Of a DNA stretch of 64,000 bases, positions 10,073 to 36,704 are shown one piece after another. The notes beneath the pieces were generated by a model that searched no databases, had not been told where the DNA came from, and worked only from the letters and a program-made list of their open reading frames with translations. The stretch spans positions 124,001-188,000 of the forward strand of contig NZ_QXHU01000003.1 of NCBI RefSeq assembly GCF_009663465.1, given 5' to 3'. The position numbers and the translations under genes were made by a program. The number at the start of each line of letters is the position of its first letter. Within the stretch, counting starts at the first letter, position 1. Source of the DNA: Riemerella anatipestifer (GTDB taxonomy: Bacteria; Bacteroidota; Bacteroidia; Flavobacteriales; Weeksellaceae).

Positions 10073-12685
10073 ATGAAGTATAACAGGCTTAGTCTTGCTG
10101 TTTTGTTCTTGTGTTCCTCCACTACATTCGTCTTGGGACAGGAAGCTAAAAAAGACAGTATTAAAAATGAAAAGAAAATAGATGGTGTCCAACTGAAAGC
10201 CACTATTAACAAAAAAACTGAAACTGCAGTATTGCAGGCTGTTAAAAAATCTAGCGTTCAGGTACAAGCCATGGGTTCTGAAGAAATTTCTAGGAAGGGT
10301 ATTTCTAATGTAGAACAAAGTTTAACCAAAATCACTGGAGTGAATACCGTGGAAGGTAAAGGGTTATTTGTAAGAGGGTTAGAAGAAAGATACAACACTC
10401 TACTTATAAACGGATTAGGCTCCCCATCTAACAACCCATTCCAAAAAATTATTGCTCTAAAACAGTTCCCAACCGATGTCGTAGGGAAGCTAAATATCTA
10501 TAAAACCTTTAATAGTGATCTTTACGCCGACTTTGCTGGGGCTACTTTTGATATAGAAACATTAACTTATGATAAACCTTTTACAAAAGTAGAGTTTAGT
10601 GTGGGATTTAACAGCCAAACTACTTTTAGAGACAAATTTAAAATCAATGAAAATGCCAATACTATCAATGGTTATCTAGGTCTTAATTCTAAAAATAGGC
10701 AACTACCTAACGAAGTGAGAGGCTTCCGCCCATCTAATTATATTTTCAATGGGCAACAGTCTGTTTCTTCTTTTAAAGATTCTTGGAATGTAGATAATAT
10801 AAAGGCATTACCCAATACAGGGCTCTCTTTCACTACCGCACAGCGTTTTAAGGCTGGTTCTGGTAGAATAGGGTTGCTTTTATCCTTAAATCAGTCCAAT
10901 AAATATCAATACCAAGAAGGGCATAATAACCTATTCTTATTTTCGGGGTCTAACATTACCTATAACAACAAACTCTACCAAAAAGAATATGAATATGAAA
11001 CCGAGTCTTCTGTATTAGTGGGATTAGGCTACAAGAACAAAGGTACAGATGTAATGTTGAATGCGATATTCTTACAAAATTCCACCAACATTATACAAGA
11101 TAATATTGGGTACGTGGACCAAGGAAACTCTGGGGAAGGTCTGTTCCGTGTGAACCAACAGGATATTTCTAGATTTACAGATATACAACTTATCGCTTCC
11201 CAAAAATTAGGCAAAAGACACCTTATAAAAGCTGGTGGTAGCTGGGTAAACAACATTTACCAACAGCCTGATAGAAAGATATTTTCAGGAATTCCTGAAA
11301 CTCCTCATGACTATGATAGAATAAGGCTAAGTTACGGAGGAAATAACCTTATCCGCCAATACCTAGATGTGAATGGTAAAAATTATCTTTCCGCTTTCGC
11401 AGAGTATAAATTGAGTTTAGGTGAAAAAAATGATAGAAAATCTTACCCTATAGAACTAAGTTTGGGATATAATGGTTTTATGGATAGAAGAAGTACTTCG
11501 TACAGATTTATCTATTCTGTATTTAATAATAATGTTTCACCGAGTGGAAGAACAGTTATTATAAACCCAGATACACCACAAGATACCTTTAACCAATCTA
11601 CGCTCAACGGATTCTTTAATTACAGAGAAGGCTCTAATGTAGTGTACAGAAACAATATTTATCAGTTTGTAAATGCAGGATATACTAGCATCAACTATAA
11701 ACCAAACGATACTTGGGACATTATTTTAGGTGGTAGAATAGAAAACAATATGAATATCACGAGGTACAAAGAACTTTCCAACTCCATCAATGGACCTTTT
11801 CTAAACCTTACTAGAAATCAGTACTATCTATTACCTTCAGTATCAGTTAAAAAAGAGCTAAACTCTAAAACTAACTTAAGATTTGCTTTCAGTAAAACTA
11901 TTACTAGACCTATCTTAATAGAGTATATGCCAATTACCTATATCAACCCTAACAACGAAAATATACTAGGTAACCCCAAACTTACCAATAGTGAAAACTA
12001 TAACTTTGACCTTAAGTATGAGCTATTTCCTACGAAAGACGAAATGTTTGCTTTTGGTATCTTCGGAAAGAAAATCGTAAATGCTATAGAAAAATCCTAC
12101 ACTGCATCGGCAAATTCTAATGGACAAACCATTACCTTTTTCAATGCCACCGAAGCCAATCTAGCAGGTATAGAGTTAGAAGGAATCATCAATCTAAAAA
12201 GAATTTCAGAAAGCCTTTCTCCTTTCTCACTAGGCACAAACGCTACCTTAATGTACTCTGATGTTAAGCGTAGTAGCCTACAAAAAGAACAAGAATCCGA
12301 CAGACAAAAAGGATTAAAAAGAGGTTTACAAGGTGCCGCACCGTGGACTCTAAATGCAGATTTGAAATACGAGACAAAGAATGCAAAGAATTTAACTCAA
12401 ACAGCATCTTTGGTGTATAATGTTTCTGGTTCTAAAATCCATACACTAGGATCAATCGGAGTAGATCATATTTATGAAAGACCTTTCCATAAGTTAGATT
12501 TTGTTTACCAAAAAGAACTTTCTAAACAATGGAAGACTAAATTCAGTATCATCAATATACTCAATACTCAATACAGATTGGAGTATGGTAATAACAGCGA
12601 TGTAGAAGTAAGAGCAGATAGCTTCGTACATACAGACTATAGAAGAGGAACTAACTTTAATCTTTCAGTAGAATATACTTTTTAA
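10073..12685 (+). CDS. TonB-dependent outer membrane receptor
   Basis: 870 residues from the ATG at 10073, where a clear signal peptide begins (MKYNRLSLAVLFLCSSTTF, cleavage near LGQ). The frame is open from a TTG at 10037. The plug domain includes SRKGISNVEQSLTKITGVNT and GLFVRGLEERYNTLLINGL, followed by a long beta barrel ending in an aromatic residue (SVEYTF). No carboxypeptidase-like N-terminal domain is seen. It imports an unknown ligand across the outer membrane with TonB energy. A lipoprotein gene follows after 37 bp. Phosphate-linked uptake is inferred from the divergent PhoB-like regulator. Confidence 0.9.
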   Translation: MKYNRLSLAVLFLCSSTTFVLGQEAKKDSIKNEKKIDGVQLKATINKKTETAVLQAVKKSSVQVQAMGSEEISRKGISNVEQSLTKITGVNTVEGKGLFVRGLEERYNTLLINGLGSPSNNPFQKIIALKQFPTDVVGKLNIYKTFNSDLYADFAGATFDIETLTYDKPFTKVEFSVGFNSQTTFRDKFKINENANTINGYLGLNSKNRQLPNEVRGFRPSNYIFNGQQSVSSFKDSWNVDNIKALPNTGLSFTTAQRFKAGSGRIGLLLSLNQSNKYQYQEGHNNLFLFSGSNITYNNKLYQKEYEYETESSVLVGLGYKNKGTDVMLNAIFLQNSTNIIQDNIGYVDQGNSGEGLFRVNQQDISRFTDIQLIASQKLGKRHLIKAGGSWVNNIYQQPDRKIFSGIPETPHDYDRIRLSYGGNNLIRQYLDVNGKNYLSAFAEYKLSLGEKNDRKSYPIELSLGYNGFMDRRSTSYRFIYSVFNNNVSPSGRTVIINPDTPQDTFNQSTLNGFFNYREGSNVVYRNNIYQFVNAGYTSINYKPNDTWDIILGGRIENNMNITRYKELSNSINGPFLNLTRNQYYLLPSVSVKKELNSKTNLRFAFSKTITRPILIEYMPITYINPNNENILGNPKLTNSENYNFDLKYELFPTKDEMFAFGIFGKKIVNAIEKSYTASANSNGQTITFFNATEANLAGIELEGIINLKRISESLSPFSLGTNATLMYSDVKRSSLQKEQESDRQKGLKRGLQGAAPWTLNADLKYETKNAKNLTQTASLVYNVSGSKIHTLGSIGVDHIYERPFHKLDFVYQKELSKQWKTKFSIINILNTQYRLEYGNNSDVEVRADSFVHTDYRRGTNFNLSVEYTF

Positions 12686-34139: not shown

Positions 34140-34171
34140 TACTCAATAAAATCATTGTATTTTGAGAAAAT

Positions 34172-34203
34172 AAAAAGCCACTTATCTATTAAAGTGGCTT
34201 TTT
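34172..34203. terminator. Bidirectional terminator
   Basis: Inverted repeat AAAAAGCCACTT / AAAGTGGCTTTTT between the convergent flavin reductase and cysK genes. Confidence 0.85.
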
Positions 34204-34273
34204 AATACAATTAAACTGATTGCTCAATCCTAATTGCTCTGTTTATTTTTTTAACTTCGTATTACAACATCAG

Positions 34274-35185
34274 CTAAAATAAGCCTTCAACAGACCAATA
34301 ACGCTCTCCTGTATCATAATTAAAGGTTAATATTCTACTTTCTTTAGGAACTGACTTAAGTAGTTGTGCAACAGCTGCCAAAGACGCCCCTGTAGATATA
34401 CCTCCTAATATTCCTTCTAATTTTGCTAACTGCTGGGCATAATGAAATGCTTCTTCTTTAGAAATTTTTAGAACTTCATCTACATATTGCCCTTGATAAG
34501 TATCTGGCACAAATCCAGCACCAATGCCTTGTATAGGGTGCGGTCCTGGCTGCCCTCCACTAAGTACAGGAGATGCTTCGGGTTCTACAGCATATACTTT
34601 TAGGCTAGGGAAATGCTCTTTTAATACTTTTGACACACCTGATATATGCCCTCCAGTACCCACTCCTGTAACTAAGAAATCTAGTCCTTCTGGAAAAGAT
34701 TTTAGTATCTCTTGAGCTGTTGTTTTGGTATGAACTAATGGATTTGCTGGGTTTTGGAATTGCTGTGGTATCCAATAATTGGTATTCTCGTCTGCCAATT
34801 CTTTCGCCTTTGCAATAGCTCCAGACATTCCTTTTTCTTTAGGGGTTAACACTAGCTCTGCCCCGTATGCCGCCATTAGACGACGACGCTCAATACTCAT
34901 AGATTCAGGCATTACTAATATCAGTTTATAGCCTTTTACTGCAGCTACCAACGCCAGCCCTACCCCTGTATTCCCAGAGGTTGGTTCTACGATAATGGTG
35001 TCTTTGGTAATGATACCTTTACTCTCTGCATCTTCAATCATCGCTAGAGCGATACGGTCTTTGATGCTTCCTCCAGGATTATTTCGCTCCAGTTTGATGT
35101 AGACACTTGAGTGTTCCCCGAATAAACGGTTGATTTTGACTTCGGGTGTATTCCCAATCGTCTGAAGAATGTTTGTGTACGCCAT
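34274..35185 (-). CDS. cysK: Cysteine synthase (O-acetylserine sulfhydrylase)
   Basis: 303 residues. It converts O-acetylserine and sulfide to cysteine. The PLP Lys lies in [12 protein letters not shown], the PLP phosphate loop in [11 protein letters not shown], and the substrate loop in PTSGNTGVG; the C-terminal region has [10 protein letters not shown]. CysK versus CysM cannot be settled by eye. It lies 33 bp downstream of cysE, so both share the attenuated leader described upstream. Confidence 0.95.
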
Positions 35186-35218: not shown

Positions 35219-36058
35219 TTATATTACATAGTTAATGATAGGGATTTCTACTACCTCAATGCCTTTTACGATAATTTGGCTTTTATGAAAGACTTTGGTG
35301 TAGGGTTCAATACTGTGGGTAAGCCATACGTTGCCTCCCACAATACTATGATGCCCCACAACAGTATCGCCACCGAGTATGGTAGCCCCCGAATAGATGA
35401 CTACTTCATCTTCAATCGTGGGGTGCCTTTTGGTGTTCGCCTTATCAAGGGAAACGGAAAGCGCCCCCAATGTTACGCCTTGGTATATCTTAACCCTGTT
35501 CCCTATGATGGTGGTTTCTCCTATTACGATTCCTGTGCCGTGGTCAATCATAAAATTCTCTCCTATTTGGGCTCCAGGGTGAATGTCTATCCCCGTACGG
35601 CTGTGCGCATATTCGGTTAAGATACGAGGTAGTAATGGGACTCCTTGCAGCCACAGCTCACGAGCCAAACGGTATATTGCTATGGCAAAAAAACCAGGAT
35701 AGGTAACCTGTACTTCTCTAACGGAAGTCGCTGCGGGGTCGTTAGAAGCAAAATAATGGGCATCTTTCATCAATTTTTGGTAAACCTCTGGTAATGTTTC
35801 TTCAAAAAAATGTTCTACCTCTATATTCCTTTCTTTTTCTCCACAAAAGGCTGTAATAATGGCTTCAAATTCGTTTTTTAATTGCCCATAATGGGCTTCA
35901 AGGCTAAGCCTTGAGAAACATATATCTTCTTCCGTAAGAAATAAAAAGCGAAATATACGCTCGGCAAAATCTTCGATACGCTGTTTGTTTACGTAATGTT
36001 TTATCTGCCTACTTTGTGAGTAGAGTATCTCCACCAACCGACTATTGCTAGTATCCAT
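35219..36058 (-). CDS. cysE: Serine O-acetyltransferase (CysE/EpsC type)
   Basis: 279 residues. The first step of cysteine synthesis: serine plus acetyl-CoA gives O-acetylserine. An N-terminal helical SATase domain is followed by a left-handed beta-helix: PGAQIGENFMIDHGTGIVIG with the catalytic Asp-His, TIIGNRVKIYQGVTLGALS and VGHHSIVGGNVWLT. The extended N-terminus is of the EpsC type. It is the first gene of cysE-cysK. A 180-nt leader with a 26-codon ORF and a terminator precedes it. Confidence 0.95.
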   Translation of the reverse strand: MDTSNSRLVEILYSQSRQIKHYVNKQRIEDFAERIFRFLFLTEEDICFSRLSLEAHYGQLKNEFEAIITAFCGEKERNIEVEHFFEETLPEVYQKLMKDAHYFASNDPAATSVREVQVTYPGFFAIAIYRLARELWLQGVPLLPRILTEYAHSRTGIDIHPGAQIGENFMIDHGTGIVIGETTIIGNRVKIYQGVTLGALSVSLDKANTKRHPTIEDEVVIYSGATILGGDTVVGHHSIVGGNVWLTHSIEPYTKVFHKSQIIVKGIEVVEIPIINYVI

Positions 36059-36076: not shown

Positions 36077-36107
36077 AAAAAAAAAGCCACTACCTATTTT
36101 GGCAGTG
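36077..36107 (-). terminator. Leader terminator (attenuator) of cysE-cysK
   Basis: On the minus strand CACTGCC (36107-36101) pairs with GGTAGTG (36094-36088), extended by flanking pairs, and is followed directly by nine T (36085-36077). It sits 18 bp before the cysE ATG, upstream of the operon rather than after a gene. CACTGCC can alternatively pair with GGCAGTG inside the leader ORF, forming an antiterminator. Confidence 0.8.
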
Positions 36108-36141
36108 ACTTTCTAATAATTCTATGTTATATCTTACTCAA

Positions 36142-36222
36142 CTATACAACGAAACGCACACACTGCCTATCTAAACTTGCAGTGTAGCACATACTTTTCG
36201 CTATTTGGTTTGTTAAAATCAT
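36142..36222 (-). CDS. Candidate cysteine-sensing leader peptide (26 codons)
   Basis: ATG at 36222, TAG at 36144-36142. The last 16 residues, from an internal Met, read MCYTASLDRQCVRFVV. Two Cys codons occur at positions 12 and 21. The ORF contains ACACTGC (36185-36179) and GCAGTGT (36166-36160), which pair with each other, and the second can instead pair with the terminator's left arm. A ribosome stalled at Cys12 (36189-36187) would mask the first segment and free the second. A TAnnTTTG box is 20 bp upstream. The internal Met11 is an alternative start. Leader function is inference, but the geometry is that of trp-type attenuation. Confidence 0.72.
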   Translation of the reverse strand: MILTNQIAKSMCYTASLDRQCVRFVV

Positions 36223-36241
36223 ACTTTCTCTAATGATGGGA

Positions 36242-36249
36242 CAAATATA
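36242..36249 (-). promoter_or_regulatory. Putative cysE-cysK promoter -7 box
   Basis: Minus-strand TATATTTG followed by TCCC. It lies 20 bp upstream of the leader ORF and is nearly identical to the boxes at 61060 and 63450. A TTT instead of TTG lies 19 bp upstream. Confidence 0.6.
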
Positions 36250-36473
36250 GAATTTTAATTTCGTAAAAAAAATTTTGGAGTGTATTTTTTTGAATATTAT
36301 AGTGAGAAAAAGCTAAAATTGATATAGAATCTTATGTTTTAAAACTTTTTTGGAACGACGATAGCCCTTTTTATTTTCTGTTTTTTCTACTTATACGAGT
36401 GGTTTTTATCTTCCTACAAATTATTTTTTTGAATTATTATCAATTTTATAGACAAAAACTGTTCATTCTTCTA

Positions 36474-36704
36474 TTCCTCAAAGCCGTTTTTGTATTCCTA
36501 CAAGCCATTTTTGTGTTCCTCACTGCCATTCTTCTATTCCTCACCGTCGTTTTTGTATTCCTACAAGCCATTTTTGTGTTCCTCACTGCCATTCTTCTAT
36601 TCCTCAAAGCCGTTTTTGTATTCCTACAGACCATTTTTGTGTTCCTACACGACTTTTTTCTATCCCTACCGATATTTTTTCTATCGCCTAAGGTACTTTT
36701 AGGT
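36474..36704. repeat. 21-bp tandem repeat array (copy 2)
   Basis: Eleven units of 21 bp in the gap between the cysE leader and the Sua5/YrdC gene. Units have the form TTCCTACAAGCCATTTTTG plus two bases. A 42-bp two-unit block at 36495-36536 is repeated exactly at 36558-36599. The last units (CCTACACGACTTTTTTCTA) match the consensus of the 2047-2318 array at about 15 of 19 positions. A T-tract recurs every 21 bp, about two helical turns. The repeat creates spurious open frames on both strands. Degenerate units may extend left to about 36390. The rest of the gap (36223-36842) holds only the cysE promoter and a small palindrome (AACGCC/GGCGTT near 36730-36750). Confidence 0.9.

Follow-up and report, generated by a model that had tools for sequence, protein, structure and literature searches.

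A putative cysteine-responsive transcription attenuator in front of cysE-cysK in Riemerella anatipestifer and other Bacteroidota

Does the cysteine-synthesis operon cysE-cysK of Riemerella anatipestifer carry its own cysteine-sensing switch? The question is raised by the region in front of cysE in the window, that is, the whole analyzed stretch of 64,000 nucleotides (contig NZ_QXHU01000003.1, positions 124,001 to 188,000). A short ORF containing two Cys codons lies here between a promoter-like box and an intrinsic terminator that precedes the first gene of the operon. The initial annotation, made from the sequence alone, took this arrangement for a Trp-type attenuator with a cysteine-containing leader peptide. 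Both the sequence and the list of ORFs agree with all of its positions for the promoter box, the ORF, segments 1-4, the run of nine T and the cysE start (Table 1), and segments 1:2, 2:3 and 3:4 can pair as it had drawn them. Judging by the sequence comparisons and folding models presented below, we assign the element, with a probability of roughly 0.9, to the ribosome-mediated transcription attenuators of the trp/his type, its signal being cysteine.

Table 1. Features of the cysE-cysK locus (positions are those of the window)
Feature	Position	Strand	Basis or remark
Putative promoter -7 box TATATTTG, Bacteroidota type (TAnnTTTG)	36242..36249	-	sequence; weak when taken alone
Leader peptide ORF MILTNQIAKSMCYTASLDRQCVRFVV, ATG start, 26 codons	36142..36222	-	sequence, ORF list, Cys leaders in relatives
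Cys12 codon TGC, proposed control codon	36187..36189	-	22 nt before segment 2
Cys21 codon TGT, within segment 2	36160..36162	-	sequence; L005 likewise (CAG TGT)
Segment 1, ACACTGC	36179..36185	-	sequence, folding
Segment 2, GGCAGTGT	36160..36167	-	sequence, folding, pairing test
Segment 3, CACTGCC	36101..36107	-	sequence, pairing test
Segment 4, GGTAGTGGC	36086..36094	-	sequence
Intrinsic terminator (3:4 hairpin and T9 run)	36077..36114	-	hairpin dG -18.7; T9 = 36077-36085
cysE, serine O-acetyltransferase	35219..36058	-	NCBIfam TIGR01172, E 2e-46, below curated cut-off
cysK, cysteine synthase A	34274..35185	-	NCBIfam TIGR01139, E 1.5e-122, above cut-off
Terminator closing the cysE-cysK operon	34171..34204	-	

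From this anatomy we infer the following course of events, from the start of transcription to the response to cysteine or charged tRNA-Cys. Transcription would begin just after TATATTTG, and a ribosome would translate the 26-codon leader. With Cys-tRNA-Cys plentiful, the ribosome would continue to the stop codon, segment 1 would pair with segment 2, and segment 3 would be left free for segment 4; once the 3:4 hairpin had formed, RNA polymerase would halt at the T-run shortly before cysE. With charged tRNA-Cys scarce, the ribosome would stall with Cys12 in the A site and cover segment 1. Segments 2 and 3 could then pair before segment 4 is made, no terminator would form, and cysE-cysK would be transcribed. 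The element very probably couples transcription of the operon to the cysteine supply, halting it or letting it proceed.

Taken by itself, the window leader folds at -46 kcal/mol, compared with a mean of -27.4 for shuffled sequences (z -5.2; none of 200 shuffles as good), and both a 1:2 hairpin and the 3:4 terminator are present in its minimum free energy fold. The 2:3 pairing is also better than in shuffles (p 0.006). The promoter box is unremarkable alone, as the window contains TATATTTG 8 times, with 6.3 occurrences expected, and two Cys in 25 codons are not rare (p ~0.13) when considered alone. The box count and the Cys content of a single leader being weak points, the case rests on relatives.

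Among six examined genomes of the genus, four carry a close cysE homolog. The window and G002 show no differences at the 173 positions from the promoter box to the T-run, 27 differences at 470 positions upstream (5.7%) and nine at the 840 positions of cysE. The near-identical congeners (L003 and L004) are too close for covariation and contribute a conservation count only. In G003 (locus L005), CysE is 55% identical to that of the window, and a leader is again found ahead of cysE-cysK. This leader, MILTSKSKAVFCCFMTIKQCSSF, has a TTG start and tandem Cys codons (TGT TGC). It keeps MILT and the Gln-Cys of segment 2, while the Cys pair stands at the position of Cys-Tyr in the window. The 1:2 hairpin (TGCTTTAT/ATAAAGCA) occupies the same place with another sequence, 2:3 is formed by AGCAGTG/CACTGCT, and the 3:4 terminator is kept as well. 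In both leaders the second Cys codon (CAG TGT) falls inside segment 2.

Two side observations concern the same genus. G004 and G005 are without a close cysE homolog, so some members of the genus seem to lack cysteine synthesis via the cysE route. Between the cys promoter and the L-threonylcarbamoyladenylate synthase gene, the window contains a 63-bp tandem repeat (three 21-bp units, ~3.5 copies, 36464-36684). In the region upstream of the promoter that includes it, the alignment with congener G001 is poor (139 of 500 columns differ), which may reflect the repeat copy number.

To see the distribution of the element, we surveyed up to 400 nt upstream of 261 cysE loci (249 distinct), taken from the family and the order, from Flavobacterium and from a named sample spanning the phylum. 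About 22 of them combine a Cys leader with a terminator downstream of it. Cys-rich leaders of this kind precede cysE in at least 10 Flavobacterium genomes (they include MRFTCCSVCTCMGRLSAEERYYI, MKFTCCNKCACMGIISAGVCCCI, MMLFVCNMCCMMWKNPQSISIA, MNLIICNTCCKMWKFPQRTSIA, MAVLTNKCTECMCFLLYGDALTVHKN, MVPAKNIMQCSCCPSYRDGLAMA and MKKVNQSYKASCICCPEKRGVSVLLLLV) and in two other Bacteroidota MAGs (MIRLQNMRCCCSPYRGC and MKFIQIICCCCCSPCKGE); MRFTCCSVCTCMG, MMLFVCNMCCMMW and MKFIQIICCCCCSPCKGE may serve as examples among the relatives. Most relatives have a match to TAnnTTTG 16-29 nt upstream of the leader start; in a few, none was found. In all five Flavobacterium loci checked, cysE is followed by cysK. The initial annotation had suggested alignment across Weeksellaceae as a check. 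Cys codons, alternative stems and terminator have indeed persisted among the relatives although the sequences have changed, but the element is not general to Weeksellaceae: it is absent before cysE in most other genera of the family, where some 70 cysE loci have no Cys leader. Most cysE genes surveyed across the order are likewise without such a leader. The few terminators seen at these loci of other genera in the family (L016, L075 and L055) follow upstream genes and were rejected as leader elements. The survey also revealed a SAM-II riboswitch in Flavobacterium at L155:2686-2745 (+) and L167:947-1026 (-). It apparently sits before metK, which diverges from cysE-cysK with its Cys leader; two sulfur amino-acid switches would then stand back to back.

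The mechanism was tested on 14 distinct leaders picked for Cys codons and a terminator, not for antiterminator pairing. Two loci were excluded from the statistics: L188, whose leader has two isolated Cys codons, and L223 (Flavobacterium luminosum, MNNKCNCCCKKCC), whose terminator lies 183 nt upstream of the start selected for cysE. Upstream of cysE in L223 we observed MNNKCNCCCKKCCMSAPTVYYHI and a terminator; possibly the start is wrong or another short gene lies between. The first arm of the terminator pairs better with its own leader (sum of -156 kcal/mol) than with swapped ones (-115, sd 8.4), none of 20,000 permutations being as good. Compared with dinucleotide shuffles, the antiterminator pairing is significant at a combined p of 3e-12, and formation of this 2:3 pairing would exclude the terminator. 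In one locus, L252, the antiterminator is not significant (p 0.40), and this locus is classed as an attenuator solely on the strength of its CCC leader, its terminator and its sister locus L274.

The position of the Cys codons bears on what the leader senses. It might be argued that the leader is translated but that control is exerted by translation in general, through any slow-down (antibiotics, starvation for several amino acids), and not by cysteine. Such control would fit the window leader, in which just one Cys codon occupies the control position, and the Met and Trp codons found nearby in some relatives (MCCMMW). Nevertheless, every one of the 14 leaders has a Cys codon 12-24 nt before segment 2, whereas shuffling of residues gives a mean of 7.7 leaders (0 of 20,000 shuffles as good), and runs of up to five Cys occur in relatives. 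Cys accounts for 31 of the 56 codons at 12-21 nt before segment 2 and for none at 36-45 nt. Moreover, the codons at the control position are those of the end product, since cysE-cysK make cysteine. We therefore regard control by translation in general as improbable. According to the model, a stall on such a Cys codon would place the ribosome over segment 1, with segment 2 still free.

The protector hairpin 1:2 is present in the window, in G003 and in the G335/G482 group. In several relatives it is weak or unclear, and in weak cases an automatic pick of the fold-best hairpin cannot be relied on. To model stalling at 15 loci, we truncated the RNA behind segment 3 and represented the ribosome by a blocked stretch. 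In the window, a modelled stall at Cys12 raises the 2:3 pairing probability from 0.00 to 0.99, and in 14 of the 15 loci the stalled value is at least 0.77 (the exception, L252, has 0.38). The free leader also forms 2:3 in six of the modelled loci; there, low expression would need a ribosome at the stop codon covering segment 2. When segment 4 is present, the folding model favors the terminator at equilibrium in most cases, even with a stalled ribosome. The switch must therefore be kinetic, as in known attenuators. Points against the attenuator, besides the scarcity of such leaders in the order and the unremarkable Cys content of the window leader, are that this leader has one Cys codon only at the control position, that its second Cys codon lies within segment 2, where a stall would favor termination, and that the 1:2 pairing is weak in several relatives.

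Alternatively, the hairpin could be a plain constitutive terminator, or an insulator separating transcription units, and the ORF a product of chance. Intergenic terminators are common, and the two Cys codons of the window leader could be accidental. However, ~700 nt separate the terminator from the end of the nearest upstream gene on the same strand, this interval contains a promoter-like box and a conserved ORF, and the leader is conserved with compensated stems, all of which makes this explanation highly improbable. Control of the terminator by a metabolite-binding riboswitch, a T-box or a protein-binding leader, with an incidental ORF, is just as improbable. The leader is strongly folded and Cys T-boxes are known before cysE in Firmicutes, but Rfam families, T-box included, have no match anywhere in the window or at the leader in six relatives, and only complementarity and Cys codons, with no sequence core, are conserved across the relatives. 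Overall, the conserved Cys codons, stems and terminator, together with the spacing of Cys from segment 2, support the initial reading of the element as a Trp-type attenuator with a Cys leader.

We also scanned the organism's own genome (1.79 Mb of loci with some overlap, about three quarters of 2.31 Mb). Of 35 genes with a terminator in front and free space, cysE has one of the two best antiterminator scores; the other top candidate is without a leader ORF. A Trp leader, MKTNSVIQKWWCQTLKQGLNFYRI (WW, GTG start), was found before trpE at L295:11617-11691 (+), corresponding to C1 ~385917, with a terminator at 11735. With this second candidate attenuator, leader-peptide attenuation seems not to be limited to cysE-cysK in the organism. 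Two other tandem-Cys ORFs of the same genome, each with a terminator-like hairpin downstream, were set aside, having few Cys codons and not standing before a gene in the scan. A search of the leader DNA against plasmids produced no match.

The element resembles trpL and hisL of E. coli in the end-product codons of the leader ORF, in the pairings 1:2, 2:3 and 3:4, and in the T-run terminator before biosynthetic genes. The control codon of trpL lies ~17 nt before segment 2, and the distance here is 12-22 nt. Here, in contrast, the amino acid is cysteine, the phylum is Bacteroidota, and segment 2 lies within the leader ORF. A different solution is represented by the T-box with tRNA-Cys specificity before cysES in Firmicutes, which senses tRNA-Cys charging and controls a terminator before cysE; it has no leader peptide, the tRNA binding the RNA directly. 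Short Cys-codon ORFs before cysteine and sulfur genes, and the proposed cysteine-responsive attenuation, are shared with Actinobacteria. For this phylum, cys leader peptides have been predicted without conserved terminator hairpins, and none in Mycobacterium (Seliverstov et al. 2005, PMC1262725), while mycobacterial polycysteine leaderless short ORFs are described as cysteine-responsive attenuators (Canestrari et al. 2020, doi 10.1111/mmi.14498, as cited in PMC13236596 and PMC9094748). Unlike the actinobacterial leaders, that of the window has both a terminator and an antiterminator, and thus does not belong to terminator-less control.

The initial annotation knew of no described example in Bacteroidota. 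For a Cys attenuator this holds in the literature searched, but attenuation by leader peptides as such, ahead of amino-acid operons, has already been suggested for Flavobacterium psychrophilum (PMC9723704), which belongs to the same phylum as R. anatipestifer and to the same genus as most of the relatives found, and the Trp leader before trpE is a candidate in the genome itself. Among the conserved structured 5' elements of that study, the main text mentions those of pheA and hisG and does not name cysE, which may be on its supplementary list.

In the CysE tree, leader-bearing genes fall into three separated groups, with eight changes, at least four of them forced by well-supported branches. 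The element has therefore been gained or lost several times. By this tree, the family of the window includes Chryseobacterium. Bacteroidota mRNAs are generally without Shine-Dalgarno sites. It is conceivable, although we would rate it at slightly less than even odds, that a cysteine-specific attenuator of the terminator type arose more than once before cysE in this phylum, the RNA sequence being free to change as long as the position of the Cys codons and the complementarity were kept, and that the switch was repeatedly built anew where translation initiates without such sites.

Ribosome-mediated transcription attenuation is a known kind of control; its use with cysteine as the signal in several lineages of Bacteroidota is what appears to be new, and the sequence data support it well. 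Terminator-type leader-peptide attenuation would thereby extend to cysteine, as the Cys leaders in the literature searched are actinobacterial and have no conserved terminators. For some Bacteroidota, where that literature describes no regulator of cysteine synthesis, the element offers a testable account of how this synthesis may be controlled.
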